Of a DNA stretch of 32,337 nt, positions 1,874 through 23,225 are shown one piece after another. The stretch lies in IMG/VR virus record IMGVR_UViG_3300042384_000949, positions 1 through 32,337 of that record; one strand, given 5' to 3'. Position numbers and translations under genes: made by a program. The notes beneath the pieces are model-generated. The model was not told the DNA's origin. It worked only from the letters and a program-made list of their open reading frames with translations, and did no database searches. Source of the DNA: a virus. How positions within the stretch are numbered: position 1 is the stretch's first letter; each line of letters opens with the position of its first letter.

Positions 1874-3247
1874 TTATGAAATTACTAGAGTATCAATGTC
1901 CCTGGTTAATATATCGTTACGGTAACAGTAATAGCCTAAAGCCGTTGTGATATGCTGCTCTCTGAGCGAGTCGTTTTCGATTAGCTTAGAGTCTTTCTTA
2001 AGCTGAGTTAGCCTTAAACCTTTACCTAGATCCTTGGCCTCTTTGTAGATAAACAGATTAGACTGCTTTAGATCATTTCTACAGAGCCCGTTGATTAAGT
2101 TATGCCTAGCTTTAATTTGAGGGTTAGCTGCTGGGACTTCTATTTCAAACTCTAAAGCCGGCCTATGTTTTGGTCTATGGTTAGAGATCCAATTTTCTAT
2201 TAGGTCCCAGTCTGGCTTATTACTACGGGTATCCCCATGCCTACCAGAAGCGTCCCCGAAAAATCTAATCAATGGGAAAGGCTTATCTAGGTACCCATCG
2301 TTAGCTATCTCGTCCATCATGTCTAACGTTCTCATCCCTGGAATGATCCAGGTTTTTCCTAGGTGGTACTGCCCGTTAATGTATTGGCCTGCGCCTATGC
2401 TCATGGGTTTACCGCTCTTAGAATTGTTAAAGTCTATAAACAGGTCCAGAGGTTTTGTTAGGTCCCAAACATAATCCCGATCTATATAGTTATTTTCATC
2501 CTCATAGGCATAGTAGACATTATCCCTATTAATCTCTATCCAGAGCCCTTCTAACATTCTTAAGCATTGTTTATGATCTAGAGTTTTACGTAAGCTATCC
2601 GTATACCAGGCAGGCAGAAAGGGGTTATCTTTTGTTTTTGAGTAAAATACTCTCCTGGTATCAGAAGCATTTTCTATAAAGTAGACATAGGCAGGGTGAG
2701 AGGGAGCGTCTGGGTTAGTAGCGCATAGTAGTAAATTCTCACCTACTCCCTGGGCTCTACCTAAACGCATCCGGATCTCTGTTACCATGTCCATTGTATC
2801 GTTTTCGGTTAACTCCTCTATGATAGCTAGGCTAAGCTCATAGGACCTGAATTTATCATAGTCCCCTTTATCCCAGCTTACCCCGTAGAAGATAGAGCCA
2901 TTAGGTAAGATTATGGTAGTGTTTGATTTATTCCAATACTTTTTTAAGTCTGGGTAGTGCTTTAGAATCATGGCCCAGATAGTATTTTTCATATCGCTAT
3001 GTACTCGCCTGCCTACTAAGATCCCTGCTCCTGGATATAAGAGCGCATGAGTTACGGCTATGTGAGCGAGTAAAAGACTCTTAGCAGATCCTACCGATCC
3101 ACTTAGCAAAATCTCAAGTGGGCCCAGGTTATAGTTATAGTCACTCCTAATGAGCTTAATAACTTCTATCTGGTACGGTACTAGGTACGGGTTAAACTCT
3201 GTTAGAGTAGGGACCGCACTAGCTACCTGGACCGCTTCTCTGGTCAT
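1874..3247 (-). CDS. terL: Terminase large subunit
   Basis: 457 residues. This is the ATP-driven packaging motor and headful or site-specific nuclease. Walker A is GSVGSAKS at residues 50-57, Walker B is LAIIEE at 140-145, and the coupling motif ATNP is near 176-179. The C-terminal RNase H-like nuclease shows acidic residues at D272 (LFIDFNN) and D332 (FFGDASG), as in other TerL nuclease domains. It lies between TerS and the portal. The ATG is preceded by a weak AAGGT site, and a 25-codon ORF ends in a 4-base overlap with the start, which may couple translation. Length and motifs match full-length TerL proteins. Confidence 0.97.
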   Translation of the reverse strand: MTREAVQVASAVPTLTEFNPYLVPYQIEVIKLIRSDYNYNLGPLEILLSGSVGSAKSLLLAHIAVTHALLYPGAGILVGRRVHSDMKNTIWAMILKHYPDLKKYWNKSNTTIILPNGSIFYGVSWDKGDYDKFRSYELSLAIIEELTENDTMDMVTEIRMRLGRAQGVGENLLLCATNPDAPSHPAYVYFIENASDTRRVFYSKTKDNPFLPAWYTDSLRKTLDHKQCLRMLEGLWIEINRDNVYYAYEDENNYIDRDYVWDLTKPLDLFIDFNNSKSGKPMSIGAGQYINGQYHLGKTWIIPGMRTLDMMDEIANDGYLDKPFPLIRFFGDASGRHGDTRSNKPDWDLIENWISNHRPKHRPALEFEIEVPAANPQIKARHNLINGLCRNDLKQSNLFIYKEAKDLGKGLRLTQLKKDSKLIENDSLREQHITTALGYYCYRNDILTRDIDTLVIS

Positions 3248-3321
3248 TTATTACTTACCTTAGACGGTAAATTTATGATTATCTGCATACTTTCTAAGCT
3301 AAAGGCATGGTAAAAATACAT
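3244..3321 (-). CDS. Possible 25-residue ORF upstream of terL
   Basis: ATG at 3321 opens a frame reading MYFYHAFSLESM and ending in TGA, which overlaps the terL ATG as ATGA. That overlap is typical of translational coupling and is the main reason to list it. The ribosome site is poor (AGG about 12 bases upstream), and the peptide has no recognisable family. It could simply be a leader that carries ribosomes to the terL start, or chance. Confidence 0.25.
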   Translation of the reverse strand: MYFYHAFSLESMQIIINLPSKVSNK

Positions 3322-11196: not shown

Positions 11197-11374
11197 AACT
11201 CTAGCTAGATTCGCTATCTATGAGCACGTTTTGAGCTCTAAAGACTTAAACCAGGCGCTTGATCGTCTAACTGACATAGCTATTACTACAGACTCGGATA
11301 GTATTTTTAGCTACACTGAGGATCTGAGATCATTAGTAATAGATTCTAAGGAGATTTTGTGGAGCGTAAAGTAA
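11186..11374 (+). CDS. Hypothetical small acidic protein
   Basis: 62 residues, helical and acidic (DLNQALDRLTDIAI, YTEDLRSLV), with no signal or membrane span. AGGG lies before the ATG. It overlaps both neighbours. Not recognised. Confidence 0.55.
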   Translation: MVDETLARFAIYEHVLSSKDLNQALDRLTDIAITTDSDSIFSYTEDLRSLVIDSKEILWSVK

Positions 11375-11694
11375 TCATTAGGCTTAAGGCCAGAATCATA
11401 GAACTAACTCGAAAGATCTACGTCATAGATGAGATTTTAAAGGTTAGAAACGAGTCTAGAATACGCTCAGATCGTAAGAATTTAGCCGATATGCTTAAGG
11501 TTAATAATCTTTTGATCTCGTTTTTAGCTCCTGGTCTAGAGCTTGGCTATTTTGATAGATGTACTTCTGACTTTCTCAAGTGGGAAGTTTTTAATAATTC
11601 TAACGGTACTAAAAGACTTGTTTTGAATGGTTTAATATATAAAGATCTAGTTACTAAAACTGAAGCTATGACCATAATGGAAAATTTAAAATGA
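11359..11694 (+). CDS. Hypothetical protein, GTG start
   Basis: 111 residues beginning at GTG 11359, with AAGGAG five bases upstream deciding the start. A basic helical N-terminus (VIIRLKARIIELTRKIYVID) is followed by a mixed region. No family recognised. It ends in an ATGA-type overlap with the lipoprotein metalloprotease gene, so translation is coupled. Confidence 0.6.
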   Translation: MERKVIIRLKARIIELTRKIYVIDEILKVRNESRIRSDRKNLADMLKVNNLLISFLAPGLELGYFDRCTSDFLKWEVFNNSNGTKRLVLNGLIYKDLVTKTEAMTIMENLK

Positions 11695-12221
11695 AATTAA
11701 TCTCTCTCCTTATCTTTCTCGTATCCTGCTCTACTCTCCAGACTCCTATTAGTACCCAGGTAGATACTGCTACCGTTATCATGGGACCTAGAGCGGTATT
11801 TTTTACTAACTCTAAAATCCCCTGGGTTATTAACCTGGTAGGATCTGCTAACTGCGTAGTTAATACTAAGGCTTTTATTAATGAGGTTAAAACTTACCCT
11901 AAATTTACCCTCACTACTGCCACCCCTACAGAGGTAGCTTCTGGCCTGGAGTCTATGGGACCTTTTGAGGTGGCTACCTATAAGACTACTAACCCCCTGA
12001 GTAAGGCTATCGCCACCACTTTCAAGGGCAATAAAACTACACTCTTCTTAAATGTTAGACGTAACCCCAGAGCTCTGCCTGCTATGGTTAATACACTAGC
12101 GCATGAGTCTCTACATCTAGCCGGGTATTCCCATGGCGATAACTCCCCAGTAGGTAAAGAGGAAAGCGTAAATTATAAGGTAGGCTCTATCTCTGAGAAA
12201 TACTTAGAAGGTTGTAAATGA
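11691..12221 (+). CDS. Lipoprotein with HExxHxxGxxH metallopeptidase motif
   Basis: 176 residues. MKLISLLIFLVSC is a type II signal peptide with lipobox LVSC, lipidated at Cys13. H138-E139-x-x-H142-x-x-G145-x-x-H148 is a complete metzincin-type zinc site (two His of the helix, a Gly turn and the third His). The intervening 120 residues are beta-rich with scattered polar stretches. A lipid-anchored, zinc-dependent protease or hydrolase in the periplasm or outer membrane is the straightforward reading. It lies in an early operon rather than the lysis module, hinting at envelope remodelling or superinfection exclusion; the substrate is unknown. The gene overlaps both neighbours by four bases. 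Confidence 0.78.
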   Translation: MKLISLLIFLVSCSTLQTPISTQVDTATVIMGPRAVFFTNSKIPWVINLVGSANCVVNTKAFINEVKTYPKFTLTTATPTEVASGLESMGPFEVATYKTTNPLSKAIATTFKGNKTTLFLNVRRNPRALPAMVNTLAHESLHLAGYSHGDNSPVGKEESVNYKVGSISEKYLEGCK

Positions 12222-16870: not shown

Positions 16871-19633
16871 TCACCCTATTAAAGTAGTCCCTAGCTCTAA
16901 CTCGCTAGTTATGTCTGGAGTCTCAGTTTGATTATCTAAAATATAACCGTACCTGTCTACCTCTTCTGCCCCAGCTAGGTAGTCGGCTGCTGTATCTGGG
17001 GCCATAGCTGGGACCCTAGAGAAGACGTTACCGAGATCGTTTATCTGTACGCTAGTAGAATCGCCATTTTTAGAGATAGAGTTAATGATCCCTACTTTTC
17101 TCTTTGATGAGCTCCCAAAACGTTTATAAAGCCTGGAGAGATCCAGAAGCAAAACATCGTTTAGGGTATTAAGGGAGAAATTTAGCTTAGCGTTAAGGCT
17201 AACTACTGACTGGGTAAGGGACCTAAAAAATAGCCACCTCTCAGAAATTATCTGAGCGTCTTCTAACTTATAAAGGTAGCTAGTTACTTCTAGGCGCTGC
17301 TTACTTTCTACTGCCTCATTAACGAAAGCTGAGTCTGCTATGATTGTTTTAAATGTTTCTACTTGAGCGTCTAGATCCACGTAAGGCCCGTATTTCAAAA
17401 TGAGAGAGTTAATAATATTGGTTTTAGTTGTTACACTAAAGTTAATAATGTCCTCGTCTTTTACTACGGTAAGGCTTTCCGGTTTATCTGCGTTTAGAAT
17501 GTTATAGGTATAATTAAAAGAATTGTTTAAGAATAAGCTACCGAATACGCTTTTGTTTACTTCGGTTATAATGTCCCTTAATGCTGGGATCTCTGAGCCT
17601 ATGCTCTTAGGGTAGTATAAACTCATTAAGAATTTACAGTCCTCTGCTGCCTGGGTAAAAGATGCAGCGTCCTGGTTAGTTAGACCTGAGTAATCGAGTA
17701 CCCACTTAACCACTTGAGAGGGGTACCTAATCCAGGTAGAGCCACTTTCTAGACCTAAGCATGAGACTGTTACCAGAGAGTCATCATTAATAAAGTCCGG
17801 TTTTTTGTATTGAATTGTACCGGTAAAGTTAGCGGTAGCGTTTACTCTTAAAACCAGGCTAGACGTGTTTACGCTTAGGACCTCATACCAGGTAGGGGTA
17901 GTTATAGACTTCGCTCTAATCCAGTCCCTGGGGCTTAAAATGGTACTTAAGTCTACCGTAGTAGATGAGGTAGTTACGTTAGGAGATCCAGACGTAAAAG
18001 TGAAAGAGATAGTAGGGTTATTGCTATTAGTTACGTTAAACTCAGCTAAACTGTTAAAGTTTATTACTGCGTCTGTAGAAGTATTTGAGACTGTAAAATC
18101 TCTATTAATAATGTACTGGGTAGTCCCTACTGATACAGACTGCACGGGTATCTTTGTCACGGTATCACTGACTACTGGAGTAGTAGCTAGCGCCTGGTTA
18201 AGCGTAATCATGTTATTAGATACTCTTTTAACCAGGTAAGAGGAGCCTAAGATTGTTACATAGTCCCCTGCTTCTATGTCCGAGATATTATCTACAGTTA
18301 TATTAGTAGCATTATTTACTACCGTTATATTGACCGAGTATTCTCTAAGCTTATGGCCTGCGATATGCCACGATCTATTTTTACCCCTGTATGGAATCTC
18401 TGGAAAGTTAGTGGCAGATACACCCGTAAAGGTAGCAGTTATCTCATCGTCTAATAGTAGTGAAGTATCTGAGCTTATAGATCTAACCTTATAAGTGTAT
18501 AGGGTAGAGTTTACCGTGAGACTTATTTTATCATTAGGACTTAGTAGCGTTTTAAAAGCTGTACCCGTACCGGTAACGATATTATTTTCTACGTCTGCAT
18601 TACGTCCTAAAGCGTTAGAAAATGTTACAGATACGGTCCCGGTAATCGTTAGGACTGTATTACTTGTAACGGTATTAACGGTGTAAGAATACTCTACCAG
18701 GGGAGTTATAACCTTGAGCTTCTGCCCTGCAGAGATCTGGGTAGTAAAGCTAGTACCTAACCCGTTTATAGTGTTAGAGGTAGCTATGCCTGAGATCGTC
18801 CCAGATAGTAAGTTAGTATCTGCTGAGCCTGAGATCGTCCCAGTAATCGGGTAGCCTGTTAGCGTCTTATCTACCCCTACGGTCCTAAGGTTATCTACCT
18901 TCCCTAATACTACCCGTTTAGGTGTATCTAGAATTGAGTTATCTACTTCCCCGTCTAAGGCAGAGAAACGGCTAACTACTAAAGGTTGTTTAAGTTTAGA
19001 GAGCTCATCTTTTAAAGTGAATTTAACCTCTGTAGGACTAAAAGCTTTATCGGTAATGATACCTTTATAGATTAACTTAGCCTCTGAGGTAGGTAGATCG
19101 TCACTCCAGGACCAGAAATTTGCAGTACCATTTTCCCATATAAGGGGATCAAAAATAGAATCGAAGTACCCATCATTATTTTCTAGCGAGATAGAGCTAT
19201 TAGTCTCTAGCGATATTCCAGTCTGCTCGAAATCTAGCTCTAGTTTTAAACTACCGATAGACTTGATTCTAGAGTCATAATGTACGCTCTCCCCAGTTGT
19301 AATAGAGTGAGGAAGATTTACCGGGATATTAGCAAAAAAGAATTTATAACTAACGTATAAGCTATTAGCTACCGGATCGGTATTATCTGAAAGTCTAACG
19401 TATAAAATCCCCTCGTCTGGGGAATAATAAAACTCTCCTGCAGTTAAAGCATTAGTAGAAGCTTCTACCAGGTCTACACTATTTACCCTTACTGCAGTTA
19501 CAAAATACTTGACTGATTTTTTGTAGATCGTCCCACTATGTACCGTGAATAGTTTTAGTTTTTCCTTGGCCTCTAGCTGGGCGAGAATTATTTTTTTAGA
19601 TCTAGTTTGTAGTGAAAAATCCGAGTAGCTCAC
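16871..19633 (-). CDS. Large tail-tip protein (central fibre/hub-like)
   Basis: 920 residues starting at GTG, which shares a base with the upstream stop. Residues about 1-230 and 600-900 look like the tail-tip hub scaffold seen in siphoviruses. In between are small beta modules in tandem: one at about 287-339 and one at about 351-403 share the pattern 'G-x-G-T-x-F...L...G/N-D/Q-K...Y-x-V...I/T-S-x-T-x-L', and a diverged third may lie near 545-600. The gene lies after the tape measure and distal-tail genes, where the central fibre (Tal, lambda gpJ role) is encoded. No enzymatic motif is seen. Confidence 0.72.
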   Translation of the reverse strand: MSYSDFSLQTRSKKIILAQLEAKEKLKLFTVHSGTIYKKSVKYFVTAVRVNSVDLVEASTNALTAGEFYYSPDEGILYVRLSDNTDPVANSLYVSYKFFFANIPVNLPHSITTGESVHYDSRIKSIGSLKLELDFEQTGISLETNSSISLENNDGYFDSIFDPLIWENGTANFWSWSDDLPTSEAKLIYKGIITDKAFSPTEVKFTLKDELSKLKQPLVVSRFSALDGEVDNSILDTPKRVVLGKVDNLRTVGVDKTLTGYPITGTISGSADTNLLSGTISGIATSNTINGLGTSFTTQISAGQKLKVITPLVEYSYTVNTVTSNTVLTITGTVSVTFSNALGRNADVENNIVTGTGTAFKTLLSPNDKISLTVNSTLYTYKVRSISSDTSLLLDDEITATFTGVSATNFPEIPYRGKNRSWHIAGHKLREYSVNITVVNNATNITVDNISDIEAGDYVTILGSSYLVKRVSNNMITLNQALATTPVVSDTVTKIPVQSVSVGTTQYIINRDFTVSNTSTDAVINFNSLAEFNVTNSNNPTISFTFTSGSPNVTTSSTTVDLSTILSPRDWIRAKSITTPTWYEVLSVNTSSLVLRVNATANFTGTIQYKKPDFINDDSLVTVSCLGLESGSTWIRYPSQVVKWVLDYSGLTNQDAASFTQAAEDCKFLMSLYYPKSIGSEIPALRDIITEVNKSVFGSLFLNNSFNYTYNILNADKPESLTVVKDEDIINFSVTTKTNIINSLILKYGPYVDLDAQVETFKTIIADSAFVNEAVESKQRLEVTSYLYKLEDAQIISERWLFFRSLTQSVVSLNAKLNFSLNTLNDVLLLDLSRLYKRFGSSSKRKVGIINSISKNGDSTSVQINDLGNVFSRVPAMAPDTAADYLAGAEEVDRYGYILDNQTETPDITSELELGTTLIG

Positions 19634-20394
19634 TATTTACCTTCCTCAAAATTTAGCTCTGTATTCCAGTAGTTTCCTATTACGAAAGATAAAGTAGGAT
19701 CGTCTTTCAAATAATAGTAGCCGTTAATACGATCATTATCCGTAGTTATGTTACCCTCTGGAAAGATAAGCCAGATAGGTAGAGTAAAAGAAGTAAAATC
19801 AAGCATAGAAAGCAGGGGAGCTACTTCCTCTTTCGTCATAGTAGAGATAGAGCCGCTAATCTCTTTCTGCGTATTAATTAGATCTATGAACCTCTGCCCT
19901 AATCTATTCTTAGTTACTGAGGAGTTATTATTTTGCTTATACTTAATAGGATACTCAAAAGTTAATTCCCCTATAGAGGCATACTTACCTAGAAAGATTT
20001 TACTAACTTCGCAATAAGCGAGTGAGCTAGTTAAAACTATCCGGGCATATCTGTAATTTTGGTCAATGTTAAAGATGTGATAACCGAAACCATGCGTAGT
20101 ATCTAGAGTTATAACCTGACTTACTGCTGGACTAGTCCAGACGTTAGTAGAGTTTAATTCTAGCGTTACGGTAGTTACACCGAAAGCAGTACCATTATGT
20201 ACGATGGAGAAAGCATTAATATCTTGAGCGCTGCCTAGATCTATCTCAATATTATCTGAGTTAGAAGTAGATCGGTAGACCTTAGTACGTCTATCGTCTA
20301 CCAGGTTAGCTACGGGATACTGAGCACTAACCGTTGAAGGGGTTAATGCTGCAGTCTTAATTAAGTTATTGTATAAAAAATATTGATTAGCCAT
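19633..20394 (-). CDS. Distal-tail-type protein with discoidin-like domain
   Basis: 253 residues. Residues about 30-130 resemble an F5/8-type-C (galactose-binding) fold: VDDRRTKVYRSTSNSDNIEIDLGS then AFSIVHNG and ending in a strand near ARIVLTSS, which is typical of phage adhesion modules. The C-terminal half is beta-rich. It lies between tape measure and tail-tip genes, the place of the distal tail protein, and its ATG overlaps the tape measure stop by one base. The carbohydrate-binding role is inferred from the fold pattern. Confidence 0.66.
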   Translation of the reverse strand: MANQYFLYNNLIKTAALTPSTVSAQYPVANLVDDRRTKVYRSTSNSDNIEIDLGSAQDINAFSIVHNGTAFGVTTVTLELNSTNVWTSPAVSQVITLDTTHGFGYHIFNIDQNYRYARIVLTSSLAYCEVSKIFLGKYASIGELTFEYPIKYKQNNNSSVTKNRLGQRFIDLINTQKEISGSISTMTKEEVAPLLSMLDFTSFTLPIWLIFPEGNITTDNDRINGYYYLKDDPTLSFVIGNYWNTELNFEEGK

Positions 20395-22397
20395 TATGCA
20401 AATACCTCGAATCCGTTCCGTTGCTCATCACGTATTAATCTTGCCAGCTCCCGACCGTTGGCCTGGACTATAATAGGGATACTTCGGATCTCGTTAATAA
20501 TTTGGGACATATCTAAGCCCCCACCTGCTCCAGATCTAGAGCCATTGGCCATAGAAAAAAGCTCTGTTTGTTGGTTTCGGTTGAGTACCATTTCTCCAGA
20601 GTTTAATAAGCTGGGTATTCTATCCCCTGAGGTAGAAGATCCTGGGACGATCCCCCCGGTAGCGAATTTAGCTCCTGCAATTTTTGCCACGTTAGCCAAA
20701 CCTAAAGCTACGATAGAAGCCGCTACTGCTGGTCCTAAGAAAGCCGGTCTAGTATCTGCTAAAGCGTTAGTAGCAGCAGTATAAGTTGATACCGTAGCAG
20801 TAGCGATAGATAGGGCTTTCTGAGCGGTAGATCCTTCCTTACTTAAAGCTAGGCCTGCGTTTAGAAAATTAGAAGCTACCTGGAGTTTTACATCGTTTTC
20901 TTGACGCTGCATCTTAGTTAGGTCTTTCTCTATTGCTACTGTATTTTTAGCGTAGTTTTGCTGCCTAGCTAGATCTGCTTTCTGGTTAGCTGCTTCTATT
21001 GTAGATTTCTGAAGTCCCGAGTTAGTAATTAAATCGGCCTTAGCTAACTCTGCCTGCCTGACTGCTTCTACTTTTGCCTGTTCTGCTAGGTATAAATTTT
21101 CGTACTCAGTAGCTCTCTGCTCCTGGGTTAGCGTATCGTCTGCTAGCTTAAGCTGGGACATATAAATATTAAAATCCTGCTGCTGCTGTATGAGCGTCTG
21201 ATTTAATGCCTCTTTGTCGGCTATTAATTTATCTGCTGCAGTCTTCTCTGCTTCTGTTTGTACTGGAGCGATACCCCCAGTATTAACTGCAGGACCTTTA
21301 GATGGGGCAGTATTTATCTGGTTAAACAGTTTGGCCTGCTGGGCCTGGAGAGCAATAATCTCCTGCTTAGCCGCTCCTGCATCAAATAAAAGATTATCAA
21401 AAAAGCCTAGATTACCGTCCTGCTCTGCCTGTAGCTGGGCCTGATAAGCTTCTATCCTGGTAGTTAGCTGAGCATACTTGGAAGATAATGTATCTAAGGT
21501 GGCAGAGTTTTGCTCCTCAGTCCTAGCAGTACCTATGAGTACCGTATTAACGTCTGCTAATACAGTCCCGAAAGTTGAGAAGGTAGCATTTACTACATTA
21601 AGAGAGGCTACTGTTAAACCGTTTTGAGTTACAAAATTACCGAGCTCTTCTTGAAAGTTATTTAAAACGTTTTTAGTTTCTTGTATTTTACCTGAGTAAG
21701 TATTGAGCTCATTAGCTGCTGCTCCTGCGAATTTAGCATTTACTACGTCTAACGCTGCCCCAGCTTTTAACTGCTCTATAGTTAGAGATCTGAGCGCAGG
21801 GATCTGCTCATTAAGCTTTCCTGCTGTACCGTCTAGAGTCTTAGCGAGTTTACTAACATTTTCCTCTAGAGATCCCCCGAAAGTAGCTGAAAGGTTAGCT
21901 GCTGCTTGGACTAAATTTTTGGCCTGCTCATTACTAACCCCGAAAGACTTAGCAATAGCTAACTGCCCTATTACTACATCGTCTGCATAAACAGAGGCGC
22001 CTTGTAGAGCATTAGCAAAATTATTAAAGTCTGCTACTACTTCCTTAGAGAAAGATCCTGTAGCTCTTAGAGCTTGGCTTAATTTATTTAAAGCTGCTTC
22101 CTGCTCTGCAGAGGCATTAATAGATCCTGAAATAAAATCTTTTAAAGATGTAAACGCAAAAGAGATACCGTCTGCTACTAAATTCCCTACTGCTGCGCCT
22201 TTAGCAATATTCGCAAAAGACGAATTAAACGCAGAAGAAATAGAGTTAGAAGTTTTTATAGCCTCTGATTTAATAGGGGCAAAACTTGAGACTACGCTAC
22301 CGGAAAATTTAACGGCTGCTTTATCTGCAGAGTTTAGAGCTTTAATGAGCTCCTCTGTACCTGCTGAGATCTCAATTTTAATCTGGTTATCTGCCAT
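20394..22397 (-). CDS. Tape measure protein
   Basis: 667 residues, predominantly helical and Ala/Ser/Gln-rich. A hydrophobic region around 65-95 and an Ala-rich segment near 540-585 (ATVSTYTAATNALA, then a GLANVAKIAG run) are typical of tape measures. The Gly-rich C-terminus has GGIVPGSSTSGDRIPSLLNSG, a motif found at the end of many phage tape measures. Length sets tail length; at roughly 0.15 nm per residue the tail would be near 100 nm (estimate). No lytic domain visible. It follows the G/GT chaperones, as expected. Confidence 0.92.
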   Translation of the reverse strand: MADNQIKIEISAGTEELIKALNSADKAAVKFSGSVVSSFAPIKSEAIKTSNSISSAFNSSFANIAKGAAVGNLVADGISFAFTSLKDFISGSINASAEQEAALNKLSQALRATGSFSKEVVADFNNFANALQGASVYADDVVIGQLAIAKSFGVSNEQAKNLVQAAANLSATFGGSLEENVSKLAKTLDGTAGKLNEQIPALRSLTIEQLKAGAALDVVNAKFAGAAANELNTYSGKIQETKNVLNNFQEELGNFVTQNGLTVASLNVVNATFSTFGTVLADVNTVLIGTARTEEQNSATLDTLSSKYAQLTTRIEAYQAQLQAEQDGNLGFFDNLLFDAGAAKQEIIALQAQQAKLFNQINTAPSKGPAVNTGGIAPVQTEAEKTAADKLIADKEALNQTLIQQQQDFNIYMSQLKLADDTLTQEQRATEYENLYLAEQAKVEAVRQAELAKADLITNSGLQKSTIEAANQKADLARQQNYAKNTVAIEKDLTKMQRQENDVKLQVASNFLNAGLALSKEGSTAQKALSIATATVSTYTAATNALADTRPAFLGPAVAASIVALGLANVAKIAGAKFATGGIVPGSSTSGDRIPSLLNSGEMVLNRNQQTELFSMANGSRSGAGGGLDMSQIINEIRSIPIIVQANGRELARLIRDEQRNGFEVFA

Positions 22398-23225
22398 TTT
22401 TCTTAGCCTCTGCTATCTGTTTTTTAAGACGTTGTATCTCGTCTTCTATTCTCAGTGAGTTAATTAGATTAAGTATCTCTATTAGCTTGGCAGGCTGCTC
22501 TAGGAGCCCACCGCTATATGGTAGCAGTCCATTTTCTAAATGCCTAGCATGGTTAGAGAGCTCAGCTACCATAGGAGAGTAGAAGTTAGAGGGGCATTTA
22601 TAGAATAAGATTTTGTCTTTATACTTAGCTACTGGGGTAGCTATTTTGCTAGCGCATCCCTTTAACGTTACCCTCTTAATCTCAGGGTACTTCTCCTTGC
22701 AAGTAGAGCAGTTAAAATTAACACTGTTTAGAGCTAGATGAGTAGCTACTACCCTTACGGTATCTTCCCAGGTTAGGCTAGACTGCCAAGTAATCTCACT
22801 AAGGAGATAATCTAGAAGGCTGCTTGGCTCTACTTTCCCAGGTCTAGGACCTTACCGTTTACTTTTATCTCGATACCCTCGTAAGCTCTAGGACTAGCAG
22901 AGGTAGAGATAAAGCTAATAGGAGAAAGGAAAGGAGTTTTTACTAGGATATTAATAGCTGTACTTACATCGTCCTCAGATAGTTCCCCGTTGATTGCTTT
23001 AATAGCTACCGGGTTATTATCATAGTCCGTTACTCCCCTAATCTCTTTAACTGCGTATTTAATCATTAGAGAAGTCTGTTTAGTTACGTCTACTACCATG
23101 TTACCGGCCTCGTTCCTGGTAGTATTAGCTATTTCAATAGATCGGTCATATCTGAGAGGGGAAAAATCTACTTCTAACTCATCATGCTTAAGGGTAATAA
23201 TGTCATTAGTCCGTAATACTTTCAT
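22387..23225 (-). CDS. Tail assembly chaperone GT fusion, made by -1 ribosomal frameshift
   Basis: The first 131 residues are those of the upstream G-like protein. At GGGAAAG (22833-22839), just before its TAG, a -1 slip enters an open frame of 148 further residues (VEPSSLLDYLL onward) that ends at 22387, giving about 279 residues. The T-like part carries four cysteines (NCSTC, LKGC, FYKC) that could bind zinc, and a helical C-terminus (INSLRIEDEIQRLKKQI). In lambda the same heptamer joins gpG and gpGT, which bind the tape measure and the tube protein during tail assembly. The stretch 22573-22829 would otherwise hold no gene, and an isolated 61-codon ORF there is only its tail. Confidence 0.85.
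22785..22828 (-). promoter_or_regulatory. Candidate frameshift-stimulating hairpin
   Basis: In the transcript, GCCAAG (22828-22823) can pair with CTTGGC (22790-22785), enclosing a smaller ATCTC/GAGAT stem. It starts four bases after the slippery heptamer, slightly closer than the usual five to eight. It may be part of a pseudoknot. Confidence 0.4.
22830..23225 (-). CDS. Tail assembly chaperone, short form (G-like)
   Basis: 131 residues, ending in LGK at TAG (22830-22832). The length and place between the major tail protein and tape measure, plus the slippery heptamer directly before the stop, identify it as the G-type chaperone. The N-terminal half is a beta-rich domain (TLKHDELEVDFSPL...), and the middle is acidic. 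AAGG lies nine bases before the ATG. In lambda the short form is made in excess over the fusion. It is downstream of the terminator at 23274-23302, so its level may be set by read-through or a separate promoter. Confidence 0.85.
   Translation of the reverse strand: MKVLRTNDIITLKHDELEVDFSPLRYDRSIEIANTTRNEAGNMVVDVTKQTSLMIKYAVKEIRGVTDYDNNPVAIKAINGELSEDDVSTAINILVKTPFLSPISFISTSASPRAYEGIEIKVNGKVLDLGK
22833..22839 (-). other. Programmed -1 frameshift slippery site GGGAAAG
   Basis: Read in the G frame as CTG GGA AAG TAG: the heptamer G_GGA_AAG fits X_XXY_YYZ and is the same sequence used by lambda. The zero-frame TAG follows immediately, and the -1 frame is open for 148 codons. Confidence 0.85.

Follow-up and report, generated by a model that had tools for sequence, protein, structure and literature searches.

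We propose that a region of an uncultured virus genome (22387–23225, minus strand) in all likelihood encodes a pair of tail assembly chaperones, G and GT, that would be produced by a lambda-like −1 ribosomal slip and in which the T part is a domain with four cysteines. The region lies within a 32,337-base virus contig from IMG/VR, analyzed here over its whole length and referred to as the window, in which the minus strand carries the head and tail genes. Four sequence hallmarks of a G/GT frameshift are found together at this locus, namely an in-phase slippery heptamer near the end of G, a conserved T frame that lacks an early start codon, a tape measure gene directly downstream, and retention of the heptamer in relatives. 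What the sequence itself shows is the heptamer in its phase, a −1 coding frame that is conserved, the position of the genes and the four invariant cysteines.

In the mechanism that we envisage, G and GT would be translated from one start, with most ribosomes stopping at the TAG codon to give G and a minority slipping back by one base on G GGA AAG to give GT, a predicted fusion of about 280 residues. By analogy with lambda, many copies of G together with a few of GT would cover the tape measure protein, with the T domain recruiting the tail-tube subunit. T itself would be a small domain, with the four invariant cysteines most likely serving as ligands of a single zinc ion. The occurrence and rate of the slip, binding to the tape measure protein and to the tube protein, and the nature of the metal are what we infer from these features. 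The frameshift as such is a further instance of a widely conserved and known device.

The Probable Frameshift Site and the −1 Frame

The G-like tail assembly chaperone ORF (22830–23225, minus strand; 131 residues in the zero frame), which has homologs in related contigs that are 60–85% identical, closes with GAC CTG GGA AAG TAG. The slippery heptamer G GGA AAG (22833–22839, minus strand) is followed directly by the zero-frame stop TAG (22830–22832), with 10 nt from the start of the heptamer to the end of the stop. A tandem −1 slip on GGGAAAG would be decoded as GGG AAA and then GTA GAG CCA, so that the fusion would continue as VEPSSL. The T frame (22387–22833, minus strand) consists of 148 codons and a stop, it has no start codon (ATG, GTG, or TTG) before codon 88, and it is free of internal stops, compared with 15–22 stops in each of the other frames. 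Its stop ends at 22387, 11 nt inside the tape measure gene, whose ATG is at 22397 and which follows directly downstream (20394–22397, minus strand; PHROG 24676, tail length tape measure, E = 8e-22). Both frames had been reported in the first-pass annotation, the one as a 131-residue chaperone ending in GGGAAAG TAG and the other as a 148-codon −1 frame running to the tape measure start, and their coordinates, frames and residues are as given there.

To place this site in context, in-phase heptamers of the form X XXY YYZ were recorded in every called ORF of the window. There are 59 such heptamers in the 48 ORFs, and only for the GGGAAAG at 22839–22833 does a position at the gene end coincide with a long −1 frame that is not started separately. 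The −1 frame at this heptamer is open for 150 codons and reaches 440 nt past the zero-frame stop.

Conservation and Selection Among Close Relatives

Separate scans of IMG/VR with G and with T recovered the same small group of contigs, seven in number, which represent four distinct sequences besides that of the window. Among the five distinct sequences the T domains are 53–87% identical in pairwise comparisons. The in-phase GGGAAAG and the open T frame are present in all seven related contigs, and hence the check proposed in the first-pass annotation, that the heptamer or the −1 frame might be lost in close relatives, revealed no such loss. In two of the contigs (L011 and L012), which represent the most distant relative, the sequence reads GGGAAAG GCG AAG TAG, with two sense codons separating the heptamer from the zero-frame stop, and since the stop is displaced while the heptamer is unchanged, retention of the heptamer does not depend on the stop. 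The codons CTG-GGA-AAG are identical in all five sequences, whereas over G as a whole only 13 of the 71 codons that are invariant at the amino acid level are also invariant at the codon level.

The T frame shows synonymous divergence (pS) of 0.33–0.71 against nonsynonymous divergence (pN) of 0.08–0.33, with pS exceeding pN in all ten pairs, and the two other frames show no synonymous excess of this kind. Judged by these substitution patterns, the −1 frame of T is evolving under purifying selection. This bears directly on the notion that G and T were once a single frame, now separated by a sequencing or assembly indel or by gene decay. A single metagenomic contig could carry such an error, but the same frame change is seen at the same heptamer in seven more contigs, some of them with only 57% identity in T and with the stop in another position, and the same layout is found in the isolate genomes of other phages. 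We thus assign this explanation next to no probability, and the coding-type conservation of T across the relatives excludes sequencing error and gene decay for practical purposes and indicates that T is very probably translated.

Possible Stimulatory Elements

The first-pass annotation had pointed to a hairpin starting four bases behind the heptamer. A possible 6-bp stem does exist at this position (22785–22828, minus strand), in which GCCAAG (22828–22823), located 4 nt after the heptamer, can pair with CTTGGC (22790–22785) across a 32-nt loop, but a role for it as a stimulator of slippage is not borne out. The minimum free energy of the 75-nt region is −16.6 kcal/mol, compared with −17.3 ± 2.9 kcal/mol for dinucleotide shuffles (z = +0.24), and 106 of the 200 shuffles fold as well. 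The corresponding regions of the four relatives likewise fold no better than their shuffles. The stem is only partly kept among these sequences, with a G-C pair changed to U-A in L007 and with the pairing broken in L006 and L012, and 48 of 500 shuffles pair equally well. On the basis of these five sequences, a stimulatory role for the hairpin is unsupported and seems doubtful.

A separate feature on the 5′ side is a weak Shine-Dalgarno-like AAGG located 10 nt upstream of the heptamer (within 22840–22860, minus strand), which is also present in L006 and L008. The spacing of 10 nt is that of the stimulator in dnaX. As L007 and L012 differ at this position, the AAGG may reflect only the codons for the residues NGK.

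Distant Homologs of T

Translated searches (tblastn) with T identified homologs in the Rhizobium phages L338C, P11VFA, and RHph_I4 and, weakly, in Alteromonas phage P24, and further searching from these matches led to the Rhodobacter phages RcTiptonus, RcDurkin, and RcZahn, Agrobacterium phage JP1 and Rhizobium phage TM16. In all distant phage regions that were read, T occupies the −1 frame and is preceded by an in-phase heptamer. The heptamer is GGGAAAC in Rhizobium phages L338C and I4, AAAAAAC in Alteromonas phage P24, Agrobacterium phage JP1, Rhizobium phage TM16 and Rhodobacter phage RcZahn, and AAAAAAG in RcTiptonus. Two gammaproteobacterial genomes also encode T with an in-phase heptamer, AAAAAAC in L041, where T is followed by a tape-measure-like frame, and AAAAAAG in L042. 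A further candidate from the profile search (L043), a cellular gene resembling glucose-6-phosphate isomerase, was rejected as a false positive. When separately built profiles were aligned with hhalign, the T profile of the window group matched that of the alphaproteobacterial phage set with a probability of 96.7% (E = 4e-10) and that of P24 with 94.6% (E = 7e-8), these E-values being for single comparisons. For the G halves, no similarity to the G of the window was detectable in the distant phages, and shared ancestry of the G proteins is unsupported.

These homologs also help to evaluate whether T might instead be expressed as an independent gene, either from a start codon of its own or through reinitiation once ribosomes have terminated at the end of G, with the heptamer being incidental. 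Such an arrangement would be in keeping with the 61-residue ORF that begins with an ATG inside T (22572) and with the separate short ORFs assigned by gene callers to the homologs in Rhizobium, Agrobacterium, and Rhodobacter phages. Against it, the first possible start in the five close sequences is at codon 88, 29, 57, 57, and 61, and in four of the five the N-terminal part of T that is under selection (LLDxLLxEI..ATH..C..C) lies upstream of any ATG, GTG, or TTG, while every distant homolog has an in-phase slippery heptamer even though its letters differ. We therefore regard a separately initiated T as very improbable.

Comparison With Lambda and Other Phages

In lambda the slip site is G_GGA_AAG, the ratio of G to GT is about 30:1, and G binds the tape measure protein while T binds the tube protein (PMC5009743; PMC7618472). 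When lambda was read with the same script as the window, the two loci were found to share the heptamer GGGAAAG, its phase, and the −1 direction, and in both the heptamer is near the G stop (25 nt from the heptamer start to the stop end in lambda, 10 nt in the window) and T immediately precedes the tape measure gene (H in lambda). Hence the earlier statement that the heptamer is the one used by lambda is correct, as it is identical and in the same phase in lambda G. The description of the pair as lambda-type holds for the mechanism, phase and gene order but not for the proteins themselves, as neither BLASTP nor hhalign detected similarity of the window G and T to lambda G and T. In addition, lambda T contains no cysteine while the window T has four that are invariant. 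Because mechanism, phase and gene order match, the window pair would work like lambda G/GT, whereas the differing sequences do not show that they belong to the same protein families. HK97 was considered as a second yardstick, but no heptamer of the scanned X XXY YYZ pattern underlies its annotated −1 fusion, so that it offered no additional comparison.

Other systems close to that of the window include the gene products annotated as tail assembly chaperones in the Rhodobacter phages RcTiptonus and RcDurkin (gp42-43) and RcZahn (gp27-28), which have a homologous T domain with the four cysteines. RcTiptonus and RcZahn also have an in-phase heptamer and a T that adjoins the tape measure gene (RcDurkin was assigned by similarity only). 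They differ from the window in using AAAAAAG (RcTiptonus) and AAAAAAC (RcZahn) rather than GGGAAAG, and the Rhodobacter phage G is not detectably similar to that of the window. Rhizobium phages L338C and RHph_I4, Agrobacterium phage JP1 and Alteromonas phage P24 share the layout with a four-cysteine T in the −1 frame, which is wholly or partly unannotated in these genomes; they differ from the window in having GGGAAAC or AAAAAAC and a T that is about 20–30% identical to that of the window.

Two of these genomes provide observations of their own. In the RcZahn genome paper no clear evidence for frameshift sequences was reported (PMC8601537). The RcZahn genome (MW677529.1) contains an in-phase A AAA AAC at 1998–2004, 22 nt before the end of gene 27, that leads in the −1 direction into gene 28, which suggests that this phage does have such a frameshift. 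In Alteromonas phage P24 (MK241539.2), the interval separating the G-like gene from the tape measure gene contains an unannotated T frame (2992–3300), an intact −1 extension located behind AAAAAAC.

The Four Cysteines of T

The first-pass annotation had noted four cysteines in T (CxxC, C, C) as unusual for a chaperone extension and as pointing to a zinc-binding fold. The cysteines are indeed present, and all 14 of the T domains that were aligned retain them, at pairwise identities that go down to about 15–30%, with about 15% as the lowest. In the numbering of the window T, the invariant columns are A30, C42, C45, C60, C80, P81, G102, G108, and Q113, so that the cysteines make up four of the nine invariant residues, in a pattern of CxxC, C and CP that is followed by a G..Q motif. 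The four-cysteine core (CxxC at residues 42 and 45, C60, and C80-P81) is encoded at 22591–22710 and the second conserved motif, ENGLLPYSGGLLEQPAKLIE (residues 100–119, including the invariant G102, G108, and Q113), at 22477–22536, both on the minus strand.

Structural Zn(Cys)4 sites are usually laid out in this way, as a CxxC pair with two further invariant cysteines. As the four-cysteine pattern fits such a site and no other role explains it better, the cysteines of T probably bind one zinc ion that would hold together a compact fold. It is also conceivable, though in our view unlikely, that the frameshift is real and the cysteines serve instead in an iron-sulfur cluster, in disulfides, or in redox chemistry. 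This would accord with the lack of a predicted metal-site structure, given that the AlphaFold2 model of T (built from eight sequences) has a mean pLDDT of 53 and is too weak to judge a metal site, and with the fact that the only hint of a zinc finger in the family libraries is to the DksA/TraR C4-type, at 18.7 bits against a cut-off of 96. The arrangement of the cysteines is, on the other hand, typical of Zn(Cys)4 sites in general, and disulfides in particular are unlikely for a cytoplasmic chaperone.

Zinc binding thus remains our preferred assignment, and we find it likely that the T domains of phages of Alphaproteobacteria and Gammaproteobacteria, together with those of the uncultured group to which the window belongs, belong to one family, so far undescribed, of domains that are made by frameshifting and organized around a Zn(Cys)4 site. 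If so, metal binding would influence the way in which these phages bring the tape measure and tube proteins together. The contact between T and the tube protein is, to our knowledge, still poorly understood in structural terms. The four-cysteine signature also provides a means to recognize T where it is unannotated or has been split into short hypothetical ORFs, and it makes metal binding by T a concrete and testable hypothesis.

The four-cysteine T domain is apparently undescribed, although individual homologs in Rhodobacter phages are already annotated as tail assembly chaperones. Pfam, PHROGs and NCBIfam contain no confident match for G or T (G has no Pfam or NCBIfam match and only a weak PHROG match), and a sequence search of the PDB gave chance-level matches only. 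The structure models, built from shallow alignments, have pLDDT values of 69 for G and 53 for T, and with models of this low quality Foldseek returned no match at E ≤ 0.001, the T model being compared with a viral library only. A search confined to the open-access literature found nothing relevant on tail assembly chaperones in connection with zinc or cysteine.

Other Features of the Window

In the heptamer scan, one other called ORF (11359–11694, plus strand) ends in slippery sequence, AAATTTA/TTTAAAA, from which a long −1 frame also opens, but this frame is the next called gene (11691–12221). The latter has its own ATG within the overlap, and this is probably an ordinary gene overlap. The protein encoded after the tape measure (19633–20394, minus strand) contains an F5/8 type C (discoidin-like) domain (E = 4.5e-7) and is a possible carbohydrate-binding part of the tail tip.
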